This document shows positions 1-14,775 of a stretch of 64,000 nt of DNA, piece after piece. The stretch comes from Microbulbifer sp. THAF38 (lineage in GTDB: Bacteria > Pseudomonadota > Gammaproteobacteria > Pseudomonadales > Cellvibrionaceae), in NCBI RefSeq assembly GCF_009363535.1, contig NZ_CP045369.1, forward strand, positions 3,421,001 to 3,485,000, given 5' to 3'. The first letter of the stretch is position 1, and each line of letters opens with the position of its first letter. The notes beneath the pieces were generated by a model. It did no database searches. It worked only from the letters and a program-made list of their open reading frames with translations, and was not told the origin of the DNA. Made by a program: the position numbers and the translations under genes.

Positions 1-457
1 CTGCCAGAAGATCTAGCGCCTTAGCTTGCTCATCCGCGATCAGTAAATTACGCTGGGCATTGACTACATCTATTCGAGCTCTACGTTTATCTCCTAGCTC
101 AATTACGGAGGATAAAGTTACCGTCAACTCAAGCTCATTGTCGGCATCATCCTCGGGATCTGGCGCATTATTGGAGCCACCATCACCAAAGTTCTTGTAT
201 TGAGCCTCACCTCCTAGGCTTAACGCAGGCCGCAGTGCTGCAGTCTCTTCAGCACCATCTAGACCTCTTCTCTGTAATGGGAATACCGCAAGCTCCGGAT
301 TCTGTGCGAGCGTCAGCTCAATCGCATCTGGTAATGTCAGTAAATCCCCCTCCTGCGCGGATACTGATTGCGCAGCTAAATACATTATCGCCACCATCAA
401 CTGGAATATGGCACGACGACGAATCACACTCTCAGTGAGCGTGCAGTAAAAATCCAT
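1..457 (-). CDS. TolC-family outer membrane efflux protein, CzcC-like (N-terminal part)
   Basis: The reading frame starts at ATG 457, behind a good GGGAG ribosome site, and runs off the left edge after about 152 codons. The protein has an N-terminal hydrophobic segment ending near SVSAQ that looks like a signal peptide. It continues with a typical outer-membrane-factor start (LTLPDAIELTLAQNPEL) and a later VTLSSVIELGDKRRARID stretch, as in CzcC/TolC proteins. These trimeric channels carry metals or drugs across the outer membrane together with an RND pump and an adaptor. The CzcI-like gene lies 75 bp upstream on the same strand, which favours a cobalt-zinc-cadmium efflux operon whose czcB and czcA genes would lie further left. 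Substrate is inferred from context only. Confidence 0.8.
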   Translation of the reverse strand, partial: MDFYCTLTESVIRRRAIFQLMVAIMYLAAQSVSAQEGDLLTLPDAIELTLAQNPELAVFPLQRRGLDGAEETAALRPALSLGGEAQYKNFGDGGSNNAPDPEDDADNELELTVTLSSVIELGDKRRARIDVVNAQRNLLIADEQAKALDLLA

Positions 458-532
458 GGGTATCTCCCAAGTCAGTTTTTAATTGCGCAAGGGGGCCTTG
501 TAGCTCTCCTTACTCGCGCGGCATTAGAGCAA

Positions 533-934
533 TCAGACTTGGGTTATAGGTGGGCGGAGTAGAGGGGTAAAATAACCACTGGGAACACGTGTATTGCCGA
601 ATTCTCGATAATTAACGATTCCGCTCAGAATAGAGAGTAATGATTGACCTACCAGGGCGGTAAAGGTACTTCCATGGCAATGACAGCAGTGATTACATAA
701 ATCCAGAAGAAACGAAGATTGATCAGCCTCATCCCCGCTGGAGGGGATCTGTAAGCTTAAATCAGAAGGGGAGCTGTCCGGTTGAAACGGTAAATTGCCG
801 GGCAGATCTTCATCATGATGTAGAGACAGGTGATTCGTTACCTCCTGAACTTCTTCATGGCTATCATAGAATGCACCTGCGGTCTGAAAGACCATAAGCA
901 CAATTAATAGAAATGATAGTCGAACTACATTCAT
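533..934 (-). CDS. CzcI-like small periplasmic metal-resistance protein
   Basis: This is a 133-residue protein from the internal ATG at 934, which places a signal-peptide-like segment (VVRLSFLLIVLMVFQTAGAF) at the N-terminus. The longer frame from 979 would push it inward. The middle is acidic and has several histidines (NHLSLHHDED). A cysteine-histidine cluster CNHCCHCHG lies near residue 80 and is a plausible metal site. CzcI-type proteins are poorly conserved small products encoded just before czcC in czcICBA operons, and position and composition fit that. The role (metal sensing or buffering in the periplasm) is inference, and I do not recognise a firm domain signature. Confidence 0.6.
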   Translation of the reverse strand: MNVVRLSFLLIVLMVFQTAGAFYDSHEEVQEVTNHLSLHHDEDLPGNLPFQPDSSPSDLSLQIPSSGDEADQSSFLLDLCNHCCHCHGSTFTALVGQSLLSILSGIVNYREFGNTRVPSGYFTPLLRPPITQV

Positions 935-1450
935 AAAAGTTACAAAGAGACCAGAATCTACTGAATGGGATTCTAGCAAGTAAATTCAGACACCTCAACT
1001 TAACTCACTGCCCTAAAGTTATCATTAACCCCAAAGTGGCTATTTGGTCACACCTTCTCTCCAAGTGAGGAGTCAGCCTCTAGAAGAGGTCAATTTACAG
1101 TTAACGACACTTACACTAGTAAGGAGTCTATCGGTCCCATAGTCCACGGAATTTGGGTTGGAAAGGTAGAGCTTTAAAAGGGCTATATTCTTCAAGTAAT
1201 CGGGATGCGAGATCATAATACTAATGTTAAATTCATTAAGTAGATTAAAATTCTTTCAGGAACCGTTAACCTTGCATGAAAGTGGGGGATTAACTTTGAA
1301 TAAGCAGCCCAAATAAAAGTCTATGCGACATTCATTTAGGAATGATTTTGATAAGAGAGCTTTCGTGAAGTCTTAGGAGGTTTATTCAATTATACGAGAG
1401 GGCAGAGTTTAAATAAGCCCACATTATAACTTACCTTGGAGAACAAATGA
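935..1450. other. Intergenic region upstream of the czc-like genes
   Basis: No coding frame of note is present in this AT-rich stretch. It should hold the promoters of the leftward czc-like operon and the rightward transglutaminase gene. The only structure I can point to is the inverted repeat at 1077-1089, annotated separately. A GGAG about 8 bases before the transglutaminase ATG serves as its ribosome site. Confidence 0.5.
1077..1093 (-). promoter_or_regulatory. Candidate MerR-family operator/promoter for the czc-like operon
   Basis: Read on the minus strand, a TTGAC -35-like hexamer (1093-1089) runs directly into a perfect inverted repeat CCTCT-TCT-AGAGG (1089-1077). This is the arrangement seen at MerR, ZntR and CueR targets, where the dyad fills an over-long spacer. 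Nineteen bases after the -35 lies a poor -10 (TCACTT). The site would fire towards the czcI-like gene about 120 bp away. No MerR-type gene is in the window, so the assignment is tentative. Confidence 0.3.
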
Positions 1451-2194
1451 ATGAAGACACTTACTCGTGAATACTTATCAGAAACCCCTATGCTTGACTT
1501 TGAGAATAAAACCATTCAGATGTTAATTGAAAATAAGAAATGGCGTAAGCTATCTCAGTATGACGCCATTGGTGCCATCTATAAGTTTGTTCGTGATGAT
1601 ATTTTATTTGGTTACAATAGTGATGATCGTATTCCGGCTAGCAGGGTACTGAAAGACGGGTACGGACAATGTAACACTAAAGGAACATTGCTAATGGCTT
1701 TGCTTCGCGCTGTTGGCATTCCTACACGCATTCATGGATTTACTATTTTTAAAGACCTTCAGAAAGGTGCCATACCTAGTTATCTATTCTATATCGTACC
1801 TGAACGAATTATCCACAGCTGGGTTGAAGTATATTCAAATGATAGGTGGATCAACCTTGAAGGATATATTATCGACCGCCCATACCTGAACAAAGTCCAA
1901 GAAGGGTTCCGTAATCAATGCTCTGAGTTTAAAGGCTATGGTATTGCCACAAAATGCCTACAAAACCCACCCATTGACTGGGAGGATAAAGATACATTTA
2001 TACAGAAAGAAGGTATCGCAGACGATTTCGGAGTTTATACGCAACCTGATGATTTTTATCTGCTCTATGGAAGTAATTTAACTGGCATTAAGAAATTACT
2101 ATTTCGCTTCGTGATCCGTCATTTAATAAATATCAATGTTAAACGGATTCGAGCAAAGGGCTTAGGTAAATGTAATACCTTAGAATTAAGCTGA
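1451..2194 (+). CDS. Transglutaminase-like domain protein
   Basis: This 247-residue soluble protein has the transglutaminase-like cysteine-protease fold in residues about 60-140. The presumed nucleophile is C74 in DGYGQCNTKG, followed by the helix TLLMALLRAVGIPTRIHG, then H122 in IIHSWVEV. The third position, usually Asp, appears to be E137 in RWINLEGY. No signal peptide or membrane segment is visible. Proteins of this fold in bacteria act as peptidases, amidases or cross-linking enzymes, and the substrate cannot be told here. The gene stands alone, ends 26 bp before the IS256-family insertion and probably belongs to the island cargo. The start at 1451 is preceded by TTGGAGAACA; an overlapping ATG at 1447 is in another frame and stops at once. 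Confidence 0.7.
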   Translation: MKTLTREYLSETPMLDFENKTIQMLIENKKWRKLSQYDAIGAIYKFVRDDILFGYNSDDRIPASRVLKDGYGQCNTKGTLLMALLRAVGIPTRIHGFTIFKDLQKGAIPSYLFYIVPERIIHSWVEVYSNDRWINLEGYIIDRPYLNKVQEGFRNQCSEFKGYGIATKCLQNPPIDWEDKDTFIQKEGIADDFGVYTQPDDFYLLYGSNLTGIKKLLFRFVIRHLININVKRIRAKGLGKCNTLELS

Positions 2195-2212
2195 TAAAGT
2201 ATAGCGATACCA

Positions 2213-2220
2213 CCTCTAGC
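2213..2220. repeat. Left target-site duplication of the IS256-family element
   Basis: CCTCTAGC at 2213-2220 is repeated directly at 4557-4564, exactly outside the two ends of the IS256-family element. Eight to nine base pairs is the usual duplication size for that family, so this marks the original insertion. Confidence 0.8.
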
Positions 2221-2268
2221 GAGGGTGTTCAAAACTCTGCCTAATTACCACCTATACTAAGCCAATTT

Positions 2269-3192
2269 TCAGCAGTCTTTCCGGCATTGGAGGTGTCCGA
2301 AGAGAGAAAAAAAAAGTCTTGGAATGAGTGCTGATAAGTCGAACCGTCGATTAAATCGATATTGAAATTCTGCCAAATATCGCTGCGCATATTTCGGCCT
2401 AATCGCATGGTAGGTACTACGCAGTGCACTTTTTAGATTGCCGAGTACCGTATTCACCCAATAGAACTCAGGCTCTTCAACAGAAGCTCGACCACCACCA
2501 CAAACAATCTTGTCATGTACACAATTAGCCTCTGTGACAGCATTGAAGCATGCAAGGCCATCTGAGATAACCATGCTACCGCTGCAAAGATGCTTTTTGC
2601 TCCAGGTAGAAATCTCACTGCTCCTGAAGCCCTTGATAATAGAGAGCTTGATACGAGTAGGACGTCTATCTTTGGTAGTTTCAACGGCAGCCACAAAGGG
2701 AGTTTTACCCTTAGCTCCGCGCCCCGGCTTGCATCCAGTATGTTCACCACCGAGATAGGCATCATCCAATTCAATAAAACCGGATAGCTTGTACTGTTGG
2801 TCCCGCTCCATCATCACCTGCATGAGTTTCTGCTTCATACGCCAGGCAGCGTTGTAAGAGAGACCCAGATGACGAGCCAGCTCCATAGAGGAAATACCCT
2901 TCTTATCCTGGGTAATCAGAAAGATACCGAGAAACCAAGTAGTAAGGGGCAGTTTGGTGGAGTCAAATATCGTACGAGAAGTAATCGATGTCTGACGTCG
3001 ACACCGGTTACATTGCTTGAGCTTGCGGTAAGCGAGGTTGCAATGTTTGTCATGTCCGCAGTGAGGGCAACAGAAGCCATTTGGCCAACGCCATTGACAG
3101 AGAGCATCGAAGCACTGCTCTTCTGTACCATAAGCTTTAAGGAATTGGGTCAAACTAATACCCTTCTGGAACTGTACCTTGTTGCGAGCCAT
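2269..3192 (-). CDS. IS1595-family (ISXO2-like) transposase
   Basis: This 307-residue DDE-type transposase moves the surrounding 1031-bp element. An N-terminal zinc-ribbon (FCCPHCGHDK then KQCNRCRRQ, residues about 40-85) precedes a helix-turn-helix-like stretch (ELARHLGLSYNAAWRMKQKL). The ISXO2-like catalytic domain starts at IELDDAYLGGE, continues through the second acidic motif VISDGLACFNAV, and ends with the family-typical NTVLGNLKSAL and FQYRFNRRFDL. The last residues (RLFFSLFGHLQCRKDC) do not look like the usual family tail. A run of nine T on the coding strand lies there, and skipping one T would extend the frame to a stop inside the terminal repeat. A LexA-type box lies 31 bp upstream of the ATG. 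Confidence 0.9.
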   Translation of the reverse strand: MARNKVQFQKGISLTQFLKAYGTEEQCFDALCQWRWPNGFCCPHCGHDKHCNLAYRKLKQCNRCRRQTSITSRTIFDSTKLPLTTWFLGIFLITQDKKGISSMELARHLGLSYNAAWRMKQKLMQVMMERDQQYKLSGFIELDDAYLGGEHTGCKPGRGAKGKTPFVAAVETTKDRRPTRIKLSIIKGFRSSEISTWSKKHLCSGSMVISDGLACFNAVTEANCVHDKIVCGGGRASVEEPEFYWVNTVLGNLKSALRSTYHAIRPKYAQRYLAEFQYRFNRRFDLSALIPRLFFSLFGHLQCRKDC

Positions 3193-3222
3193 GGTGTATT
3201 CCCTTACAGATCAACATGATAG

Positions 3223-3238
3223 CTGTATTTATATACAG
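3223..3238 (-). promoter_or_regulatory. LexA-type SOS box upstream of the IS1595 transposase
   Basis: CTGTATTTATATACAG matches the gammaproteobacterial LexA operator CTGT-N8-ACAG. It lies about 31 bp upstream of the transposase ATG, where it would cover the promoter. It is nearly the same as the imuA operator at 15525-15540, including the outer AG and TT. LexA control of this transposase is inferred, not shown. Confidence 0.6.
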
Positions 3239-3294
3239 TTACATGTGACTTAGCAAGGGTGGTAATTAGGAAACTCTGTGTCAGCCAAATAGCC

Positions 3295-4500
3295 TCATAG
3301 GCTGATGTATTTCTCCAGTCGATCTGGGAAGTGGATCGTCAGCTGTGATAGTGTCAGATTCCAATTTTGAATTGGGTGCGTCCAGCGTTCGGAGGCTTTT
3401 AGTATACCGGCATAGAGAAGCTTCAGTAAGCTATTCTCATTGGCGAAGCCGCCCTTGGTCTTGGTCAACTTGCGGAACTGCCTGTGTACAGCCTCCACCG
3501 CATTCGTAGTGTAGATCGGTGTGCGGACGTATTCCGGGTATTTAAAGTAGGCCGAGAGAGTCGGCCATTTACCCCGCCAGGACTTAATCACCATTGGATA
3601 TTTGTCACCCCACTTGGTCTCCAGCTCGTCCAAAGCGTGCTCGGCGGCATTGAGCGTTGCCGCCTTGTAGATGCATTTGAGATCGGCCATAAAGGCCTAT
3701 TGATTCTTTGAAGCTACATACTTTAGTGAGTTGCGGATCTGATGGATGATGCAGTGCTGGATCTCGGTCTTAGGGTAGATGCTCTCTATGGCCTCAGGGA
3801 AACCCTGCAGGCCATCAACACAAGCAATGAGGATATCTTTGACCCCACGGTTGTGGAGATCGGTCAGAACACTCAGCCAATGATGTGCGCCTTCTTGATC
3901 GGATAGGTAGAGCCCCAATAACTCCTTCTTGCCTTCGATATTGAGGCCAAGAATCGTGTAAATGGCCTTGCTGGCATAACGACCGTTTTCCTTGATTTTG
4001 TAATGGATAGCATCGAGCCAGACAATAGGATAGACAGCCTCCAGGTCGCGCTCACGCCAAGCTTGTAGTTCAGGCAGCAGCTTGTCAGTAACGGCATTGA
4101 TGGTGCCGTTGGAAAGCTCCATTCCGTAGATATCGGCAATATGTGTGCGGATGTCCTGATAGCTGTTACCCAGGGCAAACAGGGCGGTAATCTTGCGTTC
4201 CAGTTCGTCGGTAAGCTGAGTTTGATGCTTCTTGACGATTTGAGGCTCGAAGGTGCCGGCACGATCCCGCGGCGCCTGCAGCTCGAAGCTGCCAGCGGGG
4301 CTTTTCATAGTTTTTGAGGTGGTGCCATTCTTGCGGTTGGGCTTATCCTCGCTGGCGAGGTGCTCTTCCAGCTCCGCTTTCATGGCAGCTTCAGTGAGTT
4401 GTTTGATCAGAGGGGTGAGGATGCCATCTTTGCCATTGAGGTCTTTACCCTCGCATAAGGCTTTGACGGCGGCATCCATATCGAAAGTAGGTTTGGTCAT
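3295..4500 (-). pseudogene. IS256-family transposase, broken by an in-frame amber codon
   Basis: The full frame is 401 residues in one phase, the normal length for the family, but codon 268 (3699-3697) is TAG. The text around it reads KYVASKNQ-stop-AFMADLKC, where relatives usually have a lysine, so one A-to-T change in AAG would explain it. The catalytic acids are D163 (VWLDAIHYK) and D229 (ACVDGLQGF) before the stop and E336 (NAVEAVHRQ) after it, so the truncated product lacks the third acid. The ATG at 3690 could start a 131-residue C-terminal piece without catalytic function. The remainder is well conserved, which suggests recent inactivation. Confidence 0.85.
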
Positions 4501-4556
4501 GGGTCATCTCTTTTTTGCTAATAGTAAAGAAATGACACAGAATTCTGAACACTACC

Positions 4557-4564
4557 CCTCTAGC
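4557..4564. repeat. Right target-site duplication of the IS256-family element
   Basis: CCTCTAGC here repeats the octamer at 2213-2220 and directly follows the right terminal inverted repeat of the IS256-family element. Confidence 0.8.
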
Positions 4565-4947
4565 TCTAGTCTGAGATCTAAATATGTAACTTAACTGCCA
4601 CTATAGGAGATATGGTGGGTATCATTTCCTTTAGATACGATATCTATAATGAGTCCCAGAAAATATAAAACAATCTTTTTGAACAAACCCAGGATTACAT
4701 AATCATATAAAATAATTTAACTTTCATATCAACAACCAATCAAAGCGGAGTATCTAAACAATATTAAATCGAGTACTCTTGATCTTCCCGCAATAAAAGA
4801 TTAAGAGTCATAAAATACAATAGCCATCTATGAATAAATGAGACAAATTTCTATGACATGAAAGGCAGAGGTTAAGCCTCTCATACAATCAAAATTATAT
4901 TTATAATAAGTACATCACCTATTCGCATCAAACCAACGATACATTTT
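4565..4947. other. AT-rich intergenic region between the insertion sequence and the exonuclease gene
   Basis: I see no gene here. The stretch is very AT-rich and has no intrinsic terminator with a convincing stem. A small stem AGAGGTTAAGCCTCT at 4867-4881 lies downstream of the exonuclease but has no clean T-run after it. Confidence 0.4.
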
Positions 4948-5511
4948 TTAAATAGTCAAGTAAGGAAGTATTCTCGAAATATTACGTGCATCATCCACAC
5001 CGCGATGCTGCTGACCTTCAAAGACAATACCGAGAGACTGTAGAGCAGATCCAAGTCCTGAACGACGCTTCTTACCTGTCTTTTCTTGCCATACTGCTTT
5101 CAGGTTGATATGCGGTTTAGCAAAAAAATCTGGCGCGCAACCGTGCCGTATCAGCTCTACTTTGATCTGCTTCCAATCGTATTCCCCCCAGCTAGCCCAG
5201 GCTTGATACTCATAATGAGATAACCATAAGTTAAGGAGACTCGTGCTTTCTCTGAAATCAGGCGCACTAGCCACCATGCTATTTTTGATACCTGTAAGTT
5301 CACTGCAAAACTTACTAAGTTTCGGATTAATCATTGGTCTAACAAATTGACTATGACTAGCTAAGATTTCACCATCCAAAGTAGTCAGTACAAGTCCGAA
5401 TTCAATGACCTCCATTACCCCAACAGATAGTGGGCGATCATTCCAACAAGTTGCCTCAAGATCTACAATCAGCAGGTGCTTAATACCATTGAAGCAATTC
5501 TGAAAAACCAT
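4948..5511 (-). CDS. DEDDh-family 3'-5' exonuclease (ERI-1/KapD-like)
   Basis: From ATG 5511 the protein has 187 residues. It shows the exonuclease motifs in order: Exo I LLIVDLEATCW (D and E), the early segment VIEFGLVL, Exo II WGEYDWKQI with its Asp, and Exo III HRGVDDARNISRI with the general-base His and final Asp. Such enzymes remove 3' nucleotides from single-stranded RNA or DNA with two metal ions. The frame can be extended to 5625, but the extra 38 residues are low in complexity and 5511 has AGGG about 12 bases upstream. The gene is divergent from the second TniQ gene within the Tn7-like island. It could be cargo, a defence nuclease or an accessory to transposition; nothing here decides. 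Confidence 0.75.
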   Translation of the reverse strand: MVFQNCFNGIKHLLIVDLEATCWNDRPLSVGVMEVIEFGLVLTTLDGEILASHSQFVRPMINPKLSKFCSELTGIKNSMVASAPDFRESTSLLNLWLSHYEYQAWASWGEYDWKQIKVELIRHGCAPDFFAKPHINLKAVWQEKTGKKRRSGLGSALQSLGIVFEGQQHRGVDDARNISRILPYLTI

Positions 5512-5880
5512 GCTAAACCCTATAGTATTTTTTAAAAATGAAAAAAATCCCATTAGTATACGAAAATTATAATATACATATAAACAGAGTGAGATATTTA
5601 GAACGAGCCCGTCATCAATTGACATGGCTCAATAGAGTATTGTAAATTTTTCAAGGGATATACTATATGGAAACAATAACATGTCCTTTAAGTACTTTTA
5701 ATTATTAAATATTAGATTTCTTGGTATATCATTAGGTATTCATAAAAAATAATAAGCCATTTCAAAATATATGTGTGTATATTTATGAAGCTCTATAGCT
5801 CTCAGAACAAACTTATCAGCAAGCTAGATAGAGAAACTACAAACCACACAATATTTCTATCTTTACAATATGGTATAACT

Positions 5881-6996
5881 ATGTTTAGAGCACTGCAACA
5901 GCCGGGTGAATCCATCCATTCCTTTATATTAAGAGTTTTTATAAAAGCTGGGTTTCGGAATATAAATAGCTTAATAGCTGGCGGGGGTGGATGGAGAGAG
6001 TACCCTTCAATTCCGGATACAGCCAAAAAATATTTCACTTTTTATCCCGAGAAAGTACTGATTGACATTTTTGACTCTACTTACTCTATCGGAACAGAGG
6101 ACACTTTTAGCAGAAATAGATTTACACATTTTAAAGGCTTCCCGCAAATTCTTAACTACTCTCATGGACAATTTACTGGAAAACGAATACCTATTAAGTT
6201 TTGTAAAAGGTGTATTGAAGAAAAACTTGCAAATCAGGGCCATGCGTTTTTCGAAAGCAAGTGGTTATATATATCATATTGCGAAAAGCATAACTGTCCG
6301 TTATGGCAAATCAAAAGAACCCCTTCAGTAAAAAACAAAATTAAAAGCGTGATTTTAGGTGTTTTATCGGCTAACTGGGAGAAAGTATCCAGCTCAATAA
6401 AACATTTAACTTCAGAAGTTTACAATAATAAACATTATGAGGACCCCATAAGTAAGTGGAAACTTTACTTTTCTCCCTGTGCAAAACTAACCTACATAGA
6501 ATATTTTGTTCAGACTTTATCCTATCAGAAAAATTACATTGGGAAATTTTCTGATAGGAGATCAGCAGAACCCACGAAGAGCGACCTGAACCTCTTAAGA
6601 GCAAGATTGAAGAGATATTGTCATATGAGTTTTTATGATGTGTACAGTAAAGAATTGCAATCAAACTATAAAATCATTAAAAACTTCGAAAAAGAAAATT
6701 TTGAAACTATAAAAGTTAAACGATGGGGAATGGAGTTCCCTATACTTAAAGATAAAAAGGGAGCCTGCGCATCTTGTTCCCGATGGAATATAGATTCTTT
6801 CACTGACTGTTCAATTTCTGGTGTTATAGCTAGCTCTCGTGAAAGCGATTATTCAAGAATGGAAATTAACAGCAATAATTATATTGACTTTACAAAAAGA
6901 TGTGCTATTACTTGGCTAAACATACAGAGATATGAGTTTCGCAAGAAGTATGGTTATAAACATCCCTTAGGCCTTCCTGCACCTCTCAATCAATAA
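5881..6996 (+). CDS. Second TniQ-family target-selection protein
   Basis: The N-terminal motif QQPGESIHSFILRVFIKAGF is the usual opening of TniQ. A zinc-binding region follows with CKRC (C108, C111) and CEKH (C134, H137) in 371 residues counted from ATG 5881. An upstream ATG at 5773 would add 36 residues that fit no family start, and neither start has a clear ribosome site. The C-terminal third has further paired cysteines (CASC, later DC) and no resemblance I can name. TniQ proteins link the TnsC ATPase to the target, alone or with a DNA- or RNA-guided partner. The gene converges on tnsD with a 9-bp gap, so it is not in the main operon. No cas gene or CRISPR array is near it. Confidence 0.75.
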   Translation: MFRALQQPGESIHSFILRVFIKAGFRNINSLIAGGGGWREYPSIPDTAKKYFTFYPEKVLIDIFDSTYSIGTEDTFSRNRFTHFKGFPQILNYSHGQFTGKRIPIKFCKRCIEEKLANQGHAFFESKWLYISYCEKHNCPLWQIKRTPSVKNKIKSVILGVLSANWEKVSSSIKHLTSEVYNNKHYEDPISKWKLYFSPCAKLTYIEYFVQTLSYQKNYIGKFSDRRSAEPTKSDLNLLRARLKRYCHMSFYDVYSKELQSNYKIIKNFEKENFETIKVKRWGMEFPILKDKKGACASCSRWNIDSFTDCSISGVIASSRESDYSRMEINSNNYIDFTKRCAITWLNIQRYEFRKKYGYKHPLGLPAPLNQ

Positions 6997-7005
6997 ATAT
7001 GTTCT

Positions 7006-8421
7006 CTATTTTTTAGGATACCTCCCCTTAGCCTTTAGAGGTTTAGGTAGAGCAACCTCTAGCCATTCACGATCATATAAATACAACCAATAAAAGGCTT
7101 TATTACAGTGTAACTTAATATCTTTACGAATTGCTTTAGGGTGGGATTTGTAATATTTAAGGATTTTTAGCCTATAGCGACGTCGCATTGACTCCATATG
7201 GCATCGTTTACGATAAGTTACTAGTTCAGGATGAGTTGAGATAACTTGTTCTACTGATCCTACACCAATTTTACAAATTGTAGCTATTCGATGCCGGTTC
7301 ATTCTTGTATACCCAAGGTGAATAATTTCATCTCTACAAGCCTTAGATAATTTCTTTGGCTTAAGATTCAAGGGGATATCGTGGAGCGCTGCAAGTCTTT
7401 TCAGATAAGTTCTACTTTTCCCTGTAATTTTAGAGGTTTCATTAAGCGACCTGCTTCGTAGAATATCAATACATTTCCTCTCTTTCCTTTTCGTCCTCAT
7501 AGCAAAATCCTTTTTACGGGTTTGGAATTCAAACTCTACACTATTATGATCCTCTAATAATTGCTGGAAGGTAGAAAAAAGCCAACTTGAGAAAAAAATG
7601 TGCTGGAAGGGATTATGGCTTGCTCCTTGAACTAAAAGTTGAGAAACATATCTGAAGTCTTCAGAAGATTTTGGGAGCGAGCTATTATAAAATGGCCGAT
7701 ACTGCTGTGAATATACATAAAAATTTTGCATTAATTTTAGACGCCTAATACGGCCACTATTCGTTACCAAGCCCATATTATTTAATTTAAGGCGATATTT
7801 TGAAGTAACATCTATTAACGGAATAGGCCATTTGATCTTTCTTAAAAAATCATATCCAAACTTACCTACCTTATATTCAACACTAGATGCTTCTTTAGCA
7901 CAGCAGGTCACTGATGGTAACAATCCAAGGTTAATTCGTTGACGATTAAGTAAGTCAATTCTCTCTAAGAGTACTGGATGTATACCACAAGAAGAGACCC
8001 CAGGGATTTGATGCGACCTATGCCAATAAGCAACTCCATATTGATTTATATCGCTACAGGCGCACTCTTGACACCATTTCAAGCATAGCGAAGAACCTGC
8101 ACCAAATGATGGGAGCTGACTTTCCCTTATTGATCTCGCGCTATCATTACTCAACATAAATTTTATTATGTTATTTGAATACTTAGGCAAATAAAATATA
8201 TATATTGGAGCCAATGTCTGACCAAATAAAATTTCGTACGCTTCATCATCTGTCAGGGCTGAAAGTTTTTTTAGATTCGATGTCAAAAAGGGGTGTATGG
8301 AGGCCCTCTCCTCAGCAAGATATATTTTATTAAACTCTTTACCCTTTAATCCAGAAATAGTAGCAAAGCGAATAATTCGACTAAAGAAAAGTTCATCAGG
8401 AAAAGCTTTGGGCAGGAGCAT
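7006..8421 (-). CDS. tnsD: TnsD-like target-site selector of the Tn7-like element
   Basis: The 471-residue protein has a TniQ domain at the N-terminus. Its zinc-binding motif has C117 and C120 (WCQEC), then C145 and H148 (SSCGIH), separated by AYWHRSHQIPGV as in TnsD. The C-terminal half is basic, with helix-turn-helix-like segments, and ends with the family-typical WLYLYDREWLEVALPKP. TnsD of Tn7 binds the 3' end of its attachment gene and recruits TnsC. Since the element lies directly behind yhiN, this protein is the likely reader of the yhiN 3' end, which is inference. It is the last gene of the tnsABCD operon, 22 bp after tnsC. Confidence 0.85.
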   Translation of the reverse strand: MLLPKAFPDELFFSRIIRFATISGLKGKEFNKIYLAEERASIHPFLTSNLKKLSALTDDEAYEILFGQTLAPIYIFYLPKYSNNIIKFMLSNDSARSIRESQLPSFGAGSSLCLKWCQECACSDINQYGVAYWHRSHQIPGVSSCGIHPVLLERIDLLNRQRINLGLLPSVTCCAKEASSVEYKVGKFGYDFLRKIKWPIPLIDVTSKYRLKLNNMGLVTNSGRIRRLKLMQNFYVYSQQYRPFYNSSLPKSSEDFRYVSQLLVQGASHNPFQHIFFSSWLFSTFQQLLEDHNSVEFEFQTRKKDFAMRTKRKERKCIDILRSRSLNETSKITGKSRTYLKRLAALHDIPLNLKPKKLSKACRDEIIHLGYTRMNRHRIATICKIGVGSVEQVISTHPELVTYRKRCHMESMRRRYRLKILKYYKSHPKAIRKDIKLHCNKAFYWLYLYDREWLEVALPKPLKAKGRYPKK

Positions 8422-8443
8422 ATTGTCAAATATGGGGTGAAAC

Positions 8444-9901
8444 TTACTTTGAGGATAGATGCTTGATCGGATTTTTAAATAAAATTTCCATTTTTTTTAA
8501 CTCAGCTTCAGGATTCTCTGCAATAGATGCTCGCCTTATCAAGTCTGGATCTTTAATAAGTTCATTTAAGTCACCAATAGATTGCAAGTAAGATAGCTTC
8601 TGATGAAATTCATGGTGCTGGGGGCGATTTAAATCTCCGGGGATAATCATAACTTCTGATTTCGAAGTATCTATAGATTTAACGGAAATTTCACTAGTTT
8701 CGACCTTAGACCTATTATTACTCTTTTCCCTTCTGATACGCCGAAATTTTTCAAGCCTATTTATCCTTGCTTCATCTACAGATTTTTTGGAGAAATTTAT
8801 AGCTTTTTTTGCTGCATACTCCAGGACATATTCTGTTATAGACTCGTTATCTGAACCAATTACTAAACGCTGAGACTCCCTATAAATTCTTACAGCCAGA
8901 TCCATATTACCAATAGATAGATCATATAATTTGTCACTAAGAGATTTAGTTAAAGGAGTTTTTTCCTTTGTCCATTGCAACACCCAAAGTTCTTCAACAA
9001 ACATGGTCCACTCCTCATCATTTTTCATCAAGTCCATAGTAAAAGAAGCTTGACTTTCTGCACGTCTTGCTGTCTTTAGAGTTTTCCCTAATAATTTGTC
9101 AAAAGGAGGGTTTGCACACAGAAGAATGGGAACTCCCAATTCATTCATAAGATTATGAAGAAACCCCAGAAATTTATCTTCGCCTCCAGCTTTTGCCAAA
9201 TTTAAATGCTGCATTTCATCTATTATTATGACACCTAAAAAGCTAGACTTTATTTTAGCTTCAATTTGCTTAACAAGTAGATCACTCGTTTTTTCTGGCT
9301 TAGTCTCTTCTCCTCCAAGCTTTCTATCAATTTCCGATAAAATCTTAAGACAAAGGGCTCTGATACTTGAGTTTTCTGGGCAATCTACTTTAGCCCATAC
9401 TACTTGCTTAATATATAAAGGCTCACCTTGGTATTTACGATGCTCAATAACTTCTGGAAAACAATTTAAAATCTGCTCTAGCATACAACTTTTTCCGACA
9501 CCGCTTTCCCCAAGTAAAGTTATACCACTCCCGTTAGATTTGAAATAACCTGTTCTAGGAGCAACTTTAGATCGTTGGTCTACAGGGTAGTGTAAATAGT
9601 TCATGGTTGTCGGCGACAGGGGATTCTTGCTTGAATAACCTTTCTTAATCGCAATTTCAATTGCTCTAAAGCATTCTAGATATACTGGAAGAGGCTGCCT
9701 TAACTCTTCGATTCTTGTAAGGTATTCAATACGCTCGAAAGCACTCAACTTTCTCTCGTTTTCAGAAAATGAAGGATAGCTACTTAATTTTTCTACCAAA
9801 TCCTCATCTTTCAATTTTTTTGGTAATGCTTCGATCAAGGGGTTCCCCCGATGCTCCGGGAGTATTGCAATGTTATACTCTGCATAATTTACACCTCTCA
9901 C
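8444..9901 (-). CDS. tnsC: TnsC-like AAA+ ATPase, transposition regulator
   Basis: The 485-residue protein has a Walker A motif GESGVGKS (131-138) and a Walker B motif VIIIDE (224-229), followed by QHL as in TnsC and TniB proteins. A sensor-like ILLCANP stretch follows. TnsC polymerises on DNA in the ATP state, passes the target signal from TniQ proteins to TnsB and TnsA, and blocks repeated insertion nearby. The start is GTG 9901, overlapping the tnsB stop as GTGA, so the two are translationally coupled. The lysine- and serine-rich tail after residue 380 probably contacts partner subunits. Confidence 0.9.
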   Translation of the reverse strand: MRGVNYAEYNIAILPEHRGNPLIEALPKKLKDEDLVEKLSSYPSFSENERKLSAFERIEYLTRIEELRQPLPVYLECFRAIEIAIKKGYSSKNPLSPTTMNYLHYPVDQRSKVAPRTGYFKSNGSGITLLGESGVGKSCMLEQILNCFPEVIEHRKYQGEPLYIKQVVWAKVDCPENSSIRALCLKILSEIDRKLGGEETKPEKTSDLLVKQIEAKIKSSFLGVIIIDEMQHLNLAKAGGEDKFLGFLHNLMNELGVPILLCANPPFDKLLGKTLKTARRAESQASFTMDLMKNDEEWTMFVEELWVLQWTKEKTPLTKSLSDKLYDLSIGNMDLAVRIYRESQRLVIGSDNESITEYVLEYAAKKAINFSKKSVDEARINRLEKFRRIRREKSNNRSKVETSEISVKSIDTSKSEVMIIPGDLNRPQHHEFHQKLSYLQSIGDLNELIKDPDLIRRASIAENPEAELKKMEILFKNPIKHLSSK

Positions 9902-12042
9902 TGGTTCCGCCTCTTCCTTTTTATTAATGAGACAGCTTCATTTTTCCTTTTTGACTCTAAGTTCTCATCATCGGGATATAGTTCTGATTTCTCTTCTCTA
10001 ATGGATTCACCGTATTCAATTCGTCTATCAAGAACCGCCTCTTTTCTTCGTGTTCTCATTCCCTTTATTCGCTCAGTCTTACTCTTATCTTGTACATCTT
10101 TTTTTGTTTCACTTTTTGCTACTTGGCTAACTAATTTACGTCTATTATGTCTTTCTATAGACTTTTTACCTGGTTTATTTTTACATTTTTCTTTCTTTTT
10201 CCAATCTTTAAAATACAATATATCAGCTTGATGCTTATCACTAAGGCTTGCAGAAAACTTCATCAAGTTGCATTTAGTGAACCCTTCGCGCTCCTTAAGG
10301 CGAACATATATGAATGAAGAGTTATCTTGATCGATACGAGCTTCCATTTTCCAGCACTTGGTAGACCTGGCAAGCACTTTCCATTCTTGAAATTCTTCCC
10401 GGTCACATTCATAGTACATATCCTCATTTAAGCGGATACCTTTACTCGTCATAGATACTTCTACCGCAGGTAGAAGTTTAGCCCTTACTTCGGACTCCTC
10501 TGATCTACTTAAAGCATGCCGATGCTTTTTTAGATGGATATTCCAATAATTAAGCGGTGTAGGGGGCAATCCATTTTGCACTAACAAGACGGATTGTGCA
10601 GCTAAACCGTCAAATAGAGAATTATTATGCTCCATAACCTCATCAATAAGTAATTTTGTTACTTCATCTAATGTATATGTTGCATCGAGACGTGGATCAC
10701 GATCACCTCGAATATAATGATGTCCTCTAGTTGTCCCTAATAATTCATGGACTAGATTTTTATTCAATATTTCGAATCTTCGTTCCACAATGCCTTTAAG
10801 ATCGGCGCGATAAGGTGGAGCTATACTCAGGTGACCGATTAATGGAACGGCTAATTTTTCAGCGCTCTTACATATAAACTCCCCTCGATCGCAAAGCAAA
10901 CGCTGGGGGATATGATGGCAAGGCCATTCATGATCTTCGATTTCGATACCGAACCTAGAACAATAACTTTTCTTATCCGTAAAGCTATTGACAAGAGCTT
11001 GACGACCCGCACGCCAAGAAGCATATTCCATAGAAACGTGAAGCCCAACAATCATCCTGCTTTCTTTATCTACCACACAATAAACAGTAGGCCTACCTAG
11101 AACATGAGAGCGCCTAAATTCAGAGACAATATGAACATCCAGTACTGTTGAATCCAATTCAAAGCAACTTCCAGGAACTTCGGTATGATCTGTCGCAGCT
11201 CCTCTTAACCCACGCTTGTTTCTTTCAAAGTCACCCACTGTAGTTTGCTTTCGGATTATTTCATTTTTTGGGATTAATTTTTTAACCCAATATATAAAAG
11301 TACGATATGATGGAACATTCGGCGACCTAGATTCACTCTCTGCCAGTATTAGTTCTTGTGAGTATAGCTCCTTCAACATTTTTTCATAAACTTGACTAAA
11401 TGGAACTCGACGCCCTTTCAAGCCATACTTCTTCATCGCTAAAATAAAATTATTCTTATCATTTTCCGAAGTGTTAACCCCTTGATGTATTTCCATGCTC
11501 GGTGTAAGCATTCTTATTGGAGCTCCACGTTTAAGACCTCCTGAGACCCTAACTCTTCCAGCTCCTCCAGAATTCTTGTAAGCAGGCAGGAGGGCATTTC
11601 TTTCTTGCCCACCCCTCCAATATTGATTTAATAACCTATATATTCTCTGAGCCCTTACCCCTTTACTTTTCGCCTGATTTACCAGAACTTTGCTTCTTTC
11701 TTCAGTAGAAATCTCAAGGAGAAAATCTGGATTTTCTATTAGCTCACTTATCAGCTCAATATTTCTATCACGTTTTTTAATATGAGCTTCAGGTATCAAC
11801 CCCTCATCAGCTAGCTGATAGTAGGGAAGAGGACTAAAGTTTCTTTTCACAGCTCCTCCTTTAATCGCACACAAAAATCTGGAGCTATCAATCTTAATAG
11901 GCCTTCTTAAACCTCCAGATTCTTCAAGATTAAAAAGAACCAGAATATTTATATCATAAAAAAGTTCAAGAACACGATACACACCACTATCAACCCCATC
12001 AATATCAGTTATACTCCAAACACTGTTTCGTTCAACTCGCAT
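9898..12042 (-). CDS. tnsB: TnsB-like DDE transposase
   Basis: The 714-residue protein carries the RNase H-like integrase core with D297 (FELDSTVLD), D385 (LLCDRGEF) and E420 (RADLKGIVERRF), about the normal D-D-35-E spacing. N-terminal residues 1-280 should hold the DNA-binding modules that read the terminal boxes at 13472-13561. The C-terminal 100 residues are highly charged and contain the tail that contacts TnsC in Tn7. TnsB cuts the 3' ends of the element and joins them to the target. It begins 2 bp after tnsA and overlaps tnsC by 4 bp. Confidence 0.92.
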   Translation of the reverse strand: MRVERNSVWSITDIDGVDSGVYRVLELFYDINILVLFNLEESGGLRRPIKIDSSRFLCAIKGGAVKRNFSPLPYYQLADEGLIPEAHIKKRDRNIELISELIENPDFLLEISTEERSKVLVNQAKSKGVRAQRIYRLLNQYWRGGQERNALLPAYKNSGGAGRVRVSGGLKRGAPIRMLTPSMEIHQGVNTSENDKNNFILAMKKYGLKGRRVPFSQVYEKMLKELYSQELILAESESRSPNVPSYRTFIYWVKKLIPKNEIIRKQTTVGDFERNKRGLRGAATDHTEVPGSCFELDSTVLDVHIVSEFRRSHVLGRPTVYCVVDKESRMIVGLHVSMEYASWRAGRQALVNSFTDKKSYCSRFGIEIEDHEWPCHHIPQRLLCDRGEFICKSAEKLAVPLIGHLSIAPPYRADLKGIVERRFEILNKNLVHELLGTTRGHHYIRGDRDPRLDATYTLDEVTKLLIDEVMEHNNSLFDGLAAQSVLLVQNGLPPTPLNYWNIHLKKHRHALSRSEESEVRAKLLPAVEVSMTSKGIRLNEDMYYECDREEFQEWKVLARSTKCWKMEARIDQDNSSFIYVRLKEREGFTKCNLMKFSASLSDKHQADILYFKDWKKKEKCKNKPGKKSIERHNRRKLVSQVAKSETKKDVQDKSKTERIKGMRTRRKEAVLDRRIEYGESIREEKSELYPDDENLESKRKNEAVSLIKRKRRNQ

Positions 12043-12044
12043 GC

Positions 12045-12851
12045 TTACCTACCGATTGATGAAAGAATATTTGTTATATCTATAACTCCAGACTCTGCTA
12101 TCGGTTTACTTAAGTCTACCTCAACTTTCTTAATAGCGATTAAATGCTTCAAAAGTACTAAAGCTTCATCGTTCTTAACATCTACATTTTTACAGAATCC
12201 ATTGCATATATCTTCGATCAAATTGATCCCGACATGTAATGTCTTTATGGCTTGCTTTTCTATACTTTCCTTAAATCTACGTCCTTGTCTATATGCAGAG
12301 GTAAACCACTGAATATTTTTAGATTGAATAACCGATATTTCATTCATAGTATATATATGGAAATTTACCCCCAGAAGCTCCCACCAAATACGTTCAATTT
12401 CTAATTTTTCAGCTGTACGCTTTATTGATAGTTCTTGGGCTGATTTAACAGAGATAGCCTCATACCAAAAGTCGTGTTTATCTGTGCAAGTCAAAACAAA
12501 GTCTGTAGTCATGACATTGTATGATCCAGAACCAGGCACTTTTGGATGATTTATATCTAGATTCTTTGCAATCTTGATAGAAAAGTCTAGGGGGAGAAGG
12601 GGAAACTGTTCCCTTATATCGATTACTGAATCACAGTTTTCAACCAGATAGAAGAGACAGCTTTCGTTTTCTGAGAGGGTATGATGCTCTCTATTAACTT
12701 TAATACCCTGAATTTTTCCACTATTTCCCTTAGATTTAACATCCTGAACTCTCAGCCAGGGTTTGTATTCTTCTCCAGCTCCCAGCCCATACTTGTTTTT
12801 CAGAGCTCTTTGAAAATCAGTTAGCCTCTCTAACCTTCTGTGTCGCGCCAA
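12045..12851 (-). CDS. tnsA: TnsA-like endonuclease
   Basis: The 268-residue protein has the restriction-enzyme-like TnsA core. E63 lies just before CLFYLVENCDSVIDIREQF, D117 is in VMTTDFVL and K136 is in AISVKSAQE, matching the E-D-K triad of Tn7 TnsA. It cuts the 5' ends so that, with TnsB, the element leaves by cut-and-paste. The start is TTG 12851 behind GGGGTG at a good distance. It is the first gene of tnsABCD and the one nearest the right transposon end, as in Tn7. The operon promoter must lie in 12852-13000. Confidence 0.9.
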   Translation of the reverse strand: MARHRRLERLTDFQRALKNKYGLGAGEEYKPWLRVQDVKSKGNSGKIQGIKVNREHHTLSENESCLFYLVENCDSVIDIREQFPLLPLDFSIKIAKNLDINHPKVPGSGSYNVMTTDFVLTCTDKHDFWYEAISVKSAQELSIKRTAEKLEIERIWWELLGVNFHIYTMNEISVIQSKNIQWFTSAYRQGRRFKESIEKQAIKTLHVGINLIEDICNGFCKNVDVKNDEALVLLKHLIAIKKVEVDLSKPIAESGVIDITNILSSIGR

Positions 12852-12891
12852 AACTTTTCACCCCAATCTGATTTATGACTAAAGCATTAAC

Positions 12892-12909
12892 ATCTTAGGT
12901 CTGTAAGAT
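12892..12909. promoter_or_regulatory. Inverted repeat upstream of tnsA, possible operator
   Basis: ATCTTA at 12892-12897 and TAAGAT at 12904-12909 form a perfect 6-bp inverted repeat with a 6-base centre, about 40 bp before the tnsA start. The place suits a repressor or activator of the tns operon. No regulator gene is identified. Confidence 0.25.
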
Positions 12910-13155
12910 TTATTAATCCGGTATCTATAGTATACATACTGAGGTCATATTTAAGTGGTTGTGTTCATCCTTATTCAAACATTATGAAATTTAGCAGATC
13001 TTACAAATTCGTAGGACCGCTACGCCTAAACCGTAGAGTGTTTCTACCTATTATAAATCTGATTTTTTTATGTTATATGATTTAAGGATTGTCTTGATAA
13101 TTTCTTATAAAAAGAAAATATCTCATAAAATTTTCAGCCAAAGTAAATCTACTAT

Positions 13156-13245
13156 GAGTCATAGAAATAGGCTCTATGACTCATTTAATGGGTATTTTGT
13201 GAGTCATAGAAATAGGCTCTATGACTCATTTAATGAGTATTTTGT
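13156..13245. repeat. Two tandem 45-bp repeats, each with a perfect 10-bp hairpin
   Basis: The unit at 13156-13200 is repeated at 13201-13245 with one base change, and a decayed third start follows at 13246. Each copy contains GAGTCATAGA, a 7-base loop AATAGGC, and TCTATGACTC, a perfect stem. The repeats lie between the tnsA promoter region and the right transposon end. A 77-codon frame crosses them (13070-13303), but its content is just the repeated DNA, so I do not call it a gene. Confidence 0.8.
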
Positions 13246-13471
13246 GAGCCATATAAAGCCTTACACAACTTCTGAGCTTGGCTTAAAATACGGAAGGCCT
13301 TAAAAGGTGGCATTCAAATCAACAGTTTGCACTTAATATCTATATATAAGATTTGGTTTGTTATCGATTTTGAACTAGTAACGAAGGATATATTGTTATA
13401 TTCATCCTCATTTATTCCTGCTGCATAGGCTGCACGACTACCTCTCCCGCTGAGTGCACTCGCAGATGTGG

Positions 13472-13561
13472 CAATATTCACACTTTATAATTAGTGTTCA
13501 AACTTTATTATTCAGTGTTCAAACTTTTTCTACAGTGTTCAAACTTTATTGTACCGGCACA
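13472..13561 (-). mobile_element. Right end of the Tn7-like element with four TnsB-type boxes
   Basis: Read inward on the minus strand, the end begins TGTGCCGGTACAATAAAG at 13561 and continues with four copies of an AAAGTTTGAACACT-type box at 13533-13552, 13513-13532, 13492-13511 and 13472-13491. The first three are near-identical; the fourth has diverged (AAAGTGTGAATATTG). Tn7 itself has a TGTG terminus, ACAATAAAGT in its first box and four closely packed TnsB sites in its right 90 bp, so size and layout agree. Confidence 0.88.
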
Positions 13562-13566
13562 CCATA
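13562..13566. other. Presumed 5-bp target-site duplication at the yhiN attachment site
   Basis: CCATA lies between the transposon terminus and the yhiN stop codon. Tn7-like elements duplicate 5 bp, so this should be repeated outside the left end, which is not in the window. The assignment follows from the position of the terminus only. Confidence 0.55.
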
Positions 13567-14775
13567 TCAGGCGACCTCCCCCGCCGCACGCCCAGAAGCC
13601 CAAGCCCACTGAAAATTAAAGCCACCCAACCAGCCGGTCACATCGAGTACTTCGCCGACAAAATACAGTCCCGGTTGAGTTTTACACTCCATAGTGCGTG
13701 AAGAAATCTGATCGGTATCTACACCACCGAGAGTCACTTCCGCAGTGCGATAGCCTTCAGTGCCAGCGGGAACCAGTGTCCAGGTCTGCAACTTGGCGCC
13801 GAGTTCCTGCAACTCTACGTCAGTAAACTGCTTGAGGGGGCGGCTGTCGATATGCTGCCGCTGCAAGAAAAACTGCACCAGCTTCTTAGTCCAAACCTCG
13901 GCCAATACACTGTGCAAGTGAATCTCCGGGCTCTCGCAACGGCGCTGTTGCAGCCAATCCGCCAAATCACGATCCGGGGCCAGATCAAAAGTTACTTTTT
14001 CGCCTTCGCGCCAGTGGCTGGATATTTGCAACACCGCGGGCCCACTCAACCCTCGATGCGTAAACAGCATCTGTTCGTGAAAGCTGCCCTCACCACAGGA
14101 TGCCGTTACGGCCAGGGCACTACCGGGCAGACTATCTTGCCTTTCCAACTGGCGCTTATGCTGGGTAAAAGGCACCAGGGCCGCACGGGTGGGAATGATA
14201 TTGAGCCCAAACTGACGAGCGATTTCGTAGCCAAAACCTGTGGCTCCCATGGTGGGAATCGACAGCCCACCCGTAGCTACCACCAAAGATTCACAGCGCA
14301 CCGCCCCCAGACTGGTTTTCACCCAATAACCGCCCTGCCCCGACTCTATTGCTGAGATGGCACAGCGGGTACGGATCTGAGCCTTAGCCGCACGGCATTC
14401 AGCCAGTAACAGATCGAGAATATCCTTGGACTTGTTATCGCAAAACAGCTGGCCCAGGGTTTTCTCGTGGTAGGGGACCCCATGCTTTTCCACCAATGCA
14501 ATAAAATCCCATTGGCTATAACGCGCCAGGGCAGACTTACAAAAGTGGGGATTGCGGCTGTAGAAATTTTCCGCACTGGTATAGAGGTTGGTAAAGTTAC
14601 AGCGGCCACCGCCGGACATCAGGATCTTCTTGCCAACCTTATTGGCATGATCCAGTACCAGCACGCTGCGGCCGCGCTGGCCGGCTGTAGCCGCGCACAT
14701 CAAACCCGCCGCCCCGGCGCCGATGATCAATACATCAACACACTCAGGCAGCTGGCTATTGGATACATCACTCAT
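13567..14775 (-). CDS. yhiN: YhiN/HI0933-family NAD(P)/FAD-dependent oxidoreductase
   Basis: The 402-residue flavoprotein opens with the FAD-binding loop VLIIGAGAAGLMCAATAGQRG and has the family landmarks KILMSGGGRCNFTN near residue 50, a central VVATGGLSIPTMGATG, and a C-terminal FVGEVLDVTGWLGGFNFQWAWASG that closes the FAD site. The reaction of this widespread family is not settled. The gene is intact, and its 3' end directly adjoins the Tn7-like right end, which makes it the attachment gene. It belongs to the chromosome side by base composition. Confidence 0.92.
   Translation of the reverse strand: MSDVSNSQLPECVDVLIIGAGAAGLMCAATAGQRGRSVLVLDHANKVGKKILMSGGGRCNFTNLYTSAENFYSRNPHFCKSALARYSQWDFIALVEKHGVPYHEKTLGQLFCDNKSKDILDLLLAECRAAKAQIRTRCAISAIESGQGGYWVKTSLGAVRCESLVVATGGLSIPTMGATGFGYEIARQFGLNIIPTRAALVPFTQHKRQLERQDSLPGSALAVTASCGEGSFHEQMLFTHRGLSGPAVLQISSHWREGEKVTFDLAPDRDLADWLQQRRCESPEIHLHSVLAEVWTKKLVQFFLQRQHIDSRPLKQFTDVELQELGAKLQTWTLVPAGTEGYRTAEVTLGGVDTDQISSRTMECKTQPGLYFVGEVLDVTGWLGGFNFQWAWASGRAAGEVA

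Follow-up and report, generated by a model that had tools for sequence, protein, structure and literature searches.

A 34.8-kb yhiN-targeting Tn7-like element of Microbulbifer sp. THAF38 carries a second TniQ-like protein that probably directs insertion into plasmids

A complete Tn7-like element of 34.8 kb was delimited at the 3′ end of yhiN in Microbulbifer sp. THAF38, overlapping the window, i.e. the whole stretch of 64,000 nucleotides that was analysed. In the reading considered probable here, TnsD of this element homes to yhiN and a second TniQ-like protein, TniQ2, directs insertion into plasmids, 63−67 bp from the start of a palindrome. A wider proposal, towards which we lean only slightly, is that yhiN-homing Tn7-like elements are CRISPR-free and have two TniQ-type selectors, of which the exchangeable TniQ2 hunts XerC-like recombination sites on plasmids at a distance of 63−67 bp. 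The element family itself was already known; the new part is the two-selector reading of it. An initial annotation, made from the sequence alone, had the end and the target of the element right but did not mention the second TniQ-like gene, nor its probable function in plasmid targeting.

The right end of a Tn7-like island had been mapped by that annotation to the base behind yhiN, with four boxes at 20−21 bp spacing and the yhiN stop 5 bp away, and each of these points was reproduced. The last base of the element is 13561 (..GTACCGGCACA), CCATA follows at 13562−13566, and the yhiN stop (TCA on the plus strand) starts at 13567, CCATA alone separating it from the terminus. The TnsB-type boxes, GTTCAAACTTT, were exact at 13496, 13517 and 13537 and had 2 mismatches at 13476, giving spacings of 20, 21 and 20 bp. 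The three exact copies, all in the right end, were the only ones in the window. When up to one mismatch was allowed, 4 boxes were found in the window against 1.35 expected; since 5 of 100 shuffles also reached 4, the count by itself says little.

Positions 1 to 13561: part of the element inside the window; the remaining 21,250 bp and the left end lie to the left of the window (G000:C1:3399751-3421000, G000 being the host genome)
Positions 13472 to 13561, minus strand: right end with four TnsB-type boxes (13476, 13496, 13517 and 13537), its terminus reading TGTGCCGGTACAATAAAG on the minus strand
Positions 13562 to 13566: 5-bp target duplication CCATA, with the second copy at 747-751 of the left-hand locus L032

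The 14-mer AGTGTTCAAACTTT had five exact copies in the host genome (4.79 Mb), three at the right end and two inverted copies about 34.7 kb away, spanning C1:3399765-3399811. At this left end, CCATA occupies L032 747-751 and the element starts at 752 with TGTTCTCGCACAATAAAG, followed by exact boxes at 766 and 799; the sequence read after CCATA was TGTTCTCGCACAATAAAGTTTGAACACT. The initial annotation had proposed looking to the left for CCATA followed by a TGTG end with boxes. The duplication and the exact boxes were present in the same contig, but the terminus there reads TGTT, whereas that of the right end is TGTG. The whole element therefore spans G000:C1:3399751-3434561 (34,811 bp) and has the inverted ends starting with TGT, the box arrays and the 5-bp duplication of a Tn7-like transposon. 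A chance origin of the boxes was ruled out by their ordered array, the matching left end and the duplication. Two tandem repeats were also seen inside the element: a 45-bp unit containing an inverted repeat (TGAGTCATAGAAATAGGCTCTATGACTCA) and present in about 2.3 copies at 13155-13257 of the window, between tnsA and the right end, and about seven copies of a 13-bp unit at L032:13306-13402.

The joined flanks were searched in 48 genomes of the genus, 46 of which matched. A single match crossed the junction in 27 of the 48, which provided the empty yhiN 3′ region that the annotation had suggested looking for in relatives; the remaining matches were split by short or long gaps, lay on two contigs or covered one side only. 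In the joined flanks, a small gene (MGDVIPFKRK..., with zinc-ribbon-like cysteine pairs) begins just behind the yhiN stop. This gene was found beyond the left end of the element, its start codon overlapping the duplication. Nearly the same element was present at the same place in the congener G097, with a CCATT duplication on both sides. The main alignment between the two was 98.8% identical over 36.3 kb, a stretch that omits the first 0.4 kb of the element and includes about 1.9 kb of flank, and the immediate flanks were 85% and 79% identical. We read this as the element having probably entered the two strains separately. Other inserts of approximately 10 to 60 kb, their genes seen as ORFs only, lie between yhiN and the small gene in G105, G106, G066 and G095; these were rejected as relatives, with no Tns homologue detected by phmmer.

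The annotation had also placed TnsA nearest to the right end, as in Tn7, and TnsA is indeed the Tns gene closest to 13561. The genes of the element within the window, together with the target gene, were as follows.

Positions 12045 to 12851, minus strand: TnsA (PF08722 and PF08721), start codon TTG as listed
Positions 9898 to 12042, minus strand: TnsB, no Pfam match, matching Tn7 TnsB 7PIK over residues 7-684 (E 1e-68)
Positions 8444 to 9901, minus strand: TnsC (AAA_22 and TniB, by Pfam)
Positions 7006 to 8421, minus strand: TnsD (by Pfam), presumed yhiN selector
Positions 5773 to 6996, plus strand: TniQ2, the second TniQ-like protein and presumed plasmid selector, adjoining tnsD in the opposite orientation
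Positions 4948 to 5625, minus strand: DEDDh 3′-5′ exonuclease, taken as cargo
Positions 3295 to 4500, minus strand: Mutator/IS256-type transposase in two reading frames
Positions 2269 to 3192, minus strand: IS1595-type transposase
Positions 1451 to 2194, plus strand: transglutaminase-like protein (by Pfam), cargo
Positions 13567 to 14775, minus strand: yhiN (HI0933-like), the target gene; NFQ codons at 13609-13617, 56 bp from the junction, are the presumed TnsD recognition region

From what is known of the family, TnsA to TnsD would have their usual roles in this element, and the TnsD family profile matched Tn7 TnsD 8GLU (E 1e-16). The cargo to the left comprised outer-membrane efflux, HlyD-type, RND-type and cation-efflux proteins and then a one-strand run (L032:1411-13150) of LuxE-like, NifU-like, aminotransferase V (NifS-like), AMP-binding (acyl-AMP ligase), flavin oxidoreductase, MMPL, LolA-like, PPTase and MaoC-like proteins. 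This run of cargo genes resembles a cluster for a metabolite or a lipid, and close homologues of its LuxE-like protein were found in G097, G104 (90%), G019 and G023 (64%). Pfam scans of the larger ORFs of the element revealed neither TnsE nor Cas effectors, and PADLOC returned only TniQ and generic exonuclease models for seven window proteins. CRISPR guidance was rejected, as no array was found in the stretches scanned (window 1-13561 and L032, with about 2 kb between them outside the scan). The exonuclease at 4948-5625 was rejected as a targeting factor, since it does not resemble the exonuclease encoded next to the recombinase of IncC.

The statement in the annotation that relatives of Tn7 use yhiN was correct, as Tn6230 has been described as such an element (PMC11406308, PMC10121019). 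In E. coli, it sits between yhiN and yhiM (PMC10121019), and yhiN has been named as a TnsD target (PMC10201428). A scan of named genome contigs with the TnsD sequence alone found no relatives. With a TnsD alignment profile, the same contigs gave 101, of which the best 80 were kept. Among these 80, 30 belonged to the clade of the window's TnsD. YhiN lay directly upstream of TnsA in 19 of the 21 clade loci with sequence there, the exceptions being L146 (Pantoea) and L159 (Buttiauxella), and was absent from the available sequence of all 50 non-clade loci. The 21 omit nine clade loci, namely L127, L133, L134, L136, L145, L149, L156 and L158, in which the sequence breaks off before TnsA or shortly upstream of it, and L157, which has no TnsA match. 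In a quick tree of 77 TnsD rows, all 20 yhiN rows fell in one clade (SH-aLRT 100), which also holds six plasmid copies (six separate changes), eight rows that are cut or without TnsA, and L146. The tree omits ORFs of less than 380 aa, including L151, L158 and L159, these three being assigned to the clade by similarity only. One clade locus, L134, is on a contig binned as Dehalococcoidia and carries a relative close to the Alteromonas elements, possibly a binning error.

The TnsD of the window falls within this clade of yhiN-inserted elements, in which an E. coli yhiN/yhiM element stood in for the Tn6230 reference. With its tnsABCD module and its insertion at the yhiN 3′ end, the window element belongs to the previously known yhiN-targeting Tn6230 (tnsABCD) kind. 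The E. coli relative, with a TnsD identity of 47.7%, was present in 38 of 5,426 E. coli genomes. All 40 matching records comprised 37 chromosomes and 3 plasmids, and yhiN was the best place in 37 of the 37 chromosomes, at least seven of which derive from a single strain, 2020S05-013. In three E. coli strains, reading both flanks gave the duplications TTGCA, ATTGC and TGGCA. The distance from the yhiN N-F-Q codons to the junction, measured by script, was 52−56 bp in 24 of 25 elements; for the other one, L137, the script chose the wrong block (38), and the distance by eye was 54 bp. The cut lies before the yhiN stop in the Enterobacteriaceae measured and 1−5 bp behind it elsewhere. The stop codon does not set the insertion position.

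TniQ2 was searched for by iterated profile over the ORFs of the loci examined. There were 25 strong matches (at least 117 bits), all in clade loci or plasmid copies, some of these being copies of one element, and the next match scored 42 bits. When 15 further clade genomes were searched whole, TniQ2 was strong in 10 (E 4e-14 or better), weak in 4 and absent from 1; it had no strong match in five distant genomes. The TniQ2 and the TnsD record shared a contig number in 6 of the 10 strong clade genomes. The clade often carries TniQ2, without CRISPR. Among 369 genomes of the class, only the host genome itself and one weak match were recovered. In 15 aligned TniQ2 proteins, 11 positions were invariant; one histidine and five cysteines were among them. 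In a PDB profile search, the eight top-ranking matches of TniQ2 were all chains of TniQ or TnsD (E 0.006 to 0.1); the structure model was poor (pLDDT 58) and its fold search gave no match.

A 32-bp palindromic motif, CTACTTATTAAAATGTA[CT][CG]TTTGAAAA(A)GTAG, was found in all right-end flanks read from copies on IncC plasmids and on one IncFII(K) type. From the junction to the start of the motif there were 63 or 66 bp at the two IncC insertion points and 65 bp on IncFII(K). The IncC points were counted as two, as L117 equals L116 with an extra TGT that misfits the empty site. Duplications read on both sides of these copies were ATGCC and TCCCC, and unbroken plasmid sites were read in L213 and L235. 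A different element, on the IncC plasmid pVIM-Exn692, lies 67 bp from the motif with the duplication TGCCC; a distance of 67 bp likewise separates a third element, carried by a Providencia plasmid, from the look-alike TTACTACATTAAACGTATATTTAACCGAGTAA. Tested against plain shuffles, the palindrome had p values of 0.013−0.043 in the IncC and IncFII(K) flanks, compared with 0.16 in the Providencia flank. Independent events are few, most IncC records being copies of the same insertion, and this leaves some room for coincidence, in which something else made this region of the plasmids a hot spot and the motif merely happens to lie there. However, the spacing of 63−67 bp is shared by two IncC elements whose end boxes differ and by one element on IncFII(K), in flanks that are by eye otherwise unalike, and we consider a bystander motif very improbable.

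Motif-like sequence was present in 2,129 of 72,556 plasmid records (E up to 10); in 784 of these the match extended over 80% or more of the 66-base query, and 1,748 of the 2,129 were typed conjugative. As a general target the IncC motif was rejected, being absent near the right ends of the IncHI, pEcl174 and Alteromonas copies. Within the host genome, a search with one mismatch gave 4 matches compared to 14 for a backward control, and the element of the window was itself not seen on a plasmid. Two other plasmid copies may be mentioned for their neighbouring genes. On a conjugative plasmid of Alteromonas mediterranea (L105), large NRPS genes adjoin the transposition module of a clade element, and on plasmid p467-MDR (L208), at a site without the motif, silver/copper resistance genes lie directly behind a clade tnsABCD and a TniQ2 of 308 aa.

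A tyrosine recombinase (XerC-like) gene of one family was located within about 1.2 kb of the motif in five of six hand-picked plasmids, and the recombinase gene beside the Providencia look-alike was 44% identical to that of IncC. The palindrome is thus a candidate recombination site associated with plasmid XerC-like recombinases. The same proximity could mean that TniQ2 reads the plasmid through a recombinase bound at its site and not through the DNA, as proposed for Tn5053 and resolvases. Against this, the IncFII(K) copies are at the motif although no recombinase gene lies beside it and none of that family was found elsewhere in p187-2, and the AR_0140 and AR_0141 plasmids gave a recombinase match of just 38% over 64 residues. 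Recognition by way of the bound protein is rated as possible but rather unlikely.

The plasmid site was compared with the relationships of both selectors. A quick tree of TniQ2 placed the four proteins of the motif and look-alike copies and that of the window in one group of eight (SH-aLRT 96), with IncHI, pEcl174, Alteromonas and L159 outside it. For the four motif rows alone, two changes were required, a number as low in 71 of 500 shuffles (not significant); several branches of this tree are long, and the Alteromonas protein is only a 42-bit match. In the TnsD tree, pVIM was placed in the half with IncHI and pEcl174, and IncC and Providencia in the half with Alteromonas and the window. The plasmid site thus tracks TniQ2 better than TnsD, since the TniQ2 tree groups the motif copies and the TnsD tree separates pVIM from IncC. 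As a correlation from few cases, this suggests that the plasmid site goes with TniQ2, the putative plasmid selector. The TniQ2 of the window, 28% identical to that of IncC, would have the same kind of target.

These trees also bear on an account with only one real pathway, in which TnsD, or TnsC alone, also accepts plasmid sites and TniQ2 is degenerate or accessory. The Pfam TniQ score of TniQ2 is weak (21.6 bits, under the cut-off of 27) and its length varies from 308 to 407 aa, as might be expected of such a protein. Off-yhiN chromosomal copies exist as well: two E. coli genomes carry one while yhiN is occupied. At one of these, 18 of the 32 motif bases were matched at 66 bp (3.3e-4 per position, with five distances and two copies tried), which favours two selectors, and at the other (bcsG) there was no motif match, which speaks against them. 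On the other hand, the plasmid motif is unlike the end of yhiN, and still two distinct elements end 63−67 bp away from it; TniQ2 has been kept across the clade; and the grouping of the TnsDs does not match the plasmid site. A single pathway is accordingly judged unlikely, and two selectors remain the favoured reading.

With two selectors, insertion may be pictured as follows. TnsA and TnsB would cut and join the element ends, and TnsC would connect them to a selector. TnsD would read the 3′ coding end of yhiN, so placing the insertion some 54 bp downstream, which in this element is immediately past the stop, with a 5-bp duplication. TniQ2 would direct insertion into plasmids beside the palindromic site, and conjugation would then take the element to new hosts. 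TnsC and TnsAB would be common to both selectors, each passing on its own target, and insertion would be displaced by about 50 bp from either the palindrome centre or the NFQ codons. If true, this would account for the presence of such islands on IncC and IncF plasmids and would add a further route, beside TnsE and CRISPR, by which Tn7-like elements reach conjugative plasmids. The anatomy, with two selectors, two short target sites and two fixed spacings, makes Tn6230 targeting testable, and the marine element of the window carries a TniQ2 of the plasmid-site group. No plasmid-site role for the second TniQ of yhiN elements was found in the open-licence papers searched.

The element resembles Tn7 in its TnsA-D and in the homing of TnsD to the end of a conserved gene, and its end layout matches that of Tn7. 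Unlike Tn7 proper, with its glmS target and TnsE, it targets yhiN, has no TnsE in the scanned ORFs and has a TniQ-like putative second selector. Tn6230 is closer, sharing tnsABCD, insertion at the yhiN end, a 5-bp duplication and a TnsA adjoining the yhiN-side end; the window element differs in its host family and its cargo. In Table 1 of a 2024 review, the entry for Tn6230 reads ‘Targets yhiN att site, but molecular details are unknown’ (PMC11406308). In Vibrio cidicii, an element of the Tn7 type adjoining yhiN is described with tnsABCD and a target selector tniQ/tnsD, no plasmid role being given in the passage concerned (PMC12671221); since that paper names one, a further tniQ in a yhiN-side element had been annotated before. 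The Tn5053 family is similar in that its TniQ is said to target plasmid resolution sites (PMC11406308). It differs in having a tniABQR module with one TniQ and in using resolvase res sites and not tyrosine-recombinase sites, whereas tnsABCD with TnsA was found here. In CRISPR-associated transposons with two TniQs, one serves a chromosomal site and another mobile elements (PMC11406308), and such relatives insert 50 to 60 bp from the target (PMC8649781). They differ from the present element in their Cas effectors and array, neither of which was found in the parts scanned (larger ORFs; window 1-13561 and L032). Tn6022, like the window element in the reading favoured here, is a Tn7-like element with two pathways, and targets comM via TniQ and TnsF, an inactive tyrosine recombinase relative (PMC10293859). 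In Tn6022 it is the selector that is a recombinase relative, whereas here the site of a recombinase would be the target.
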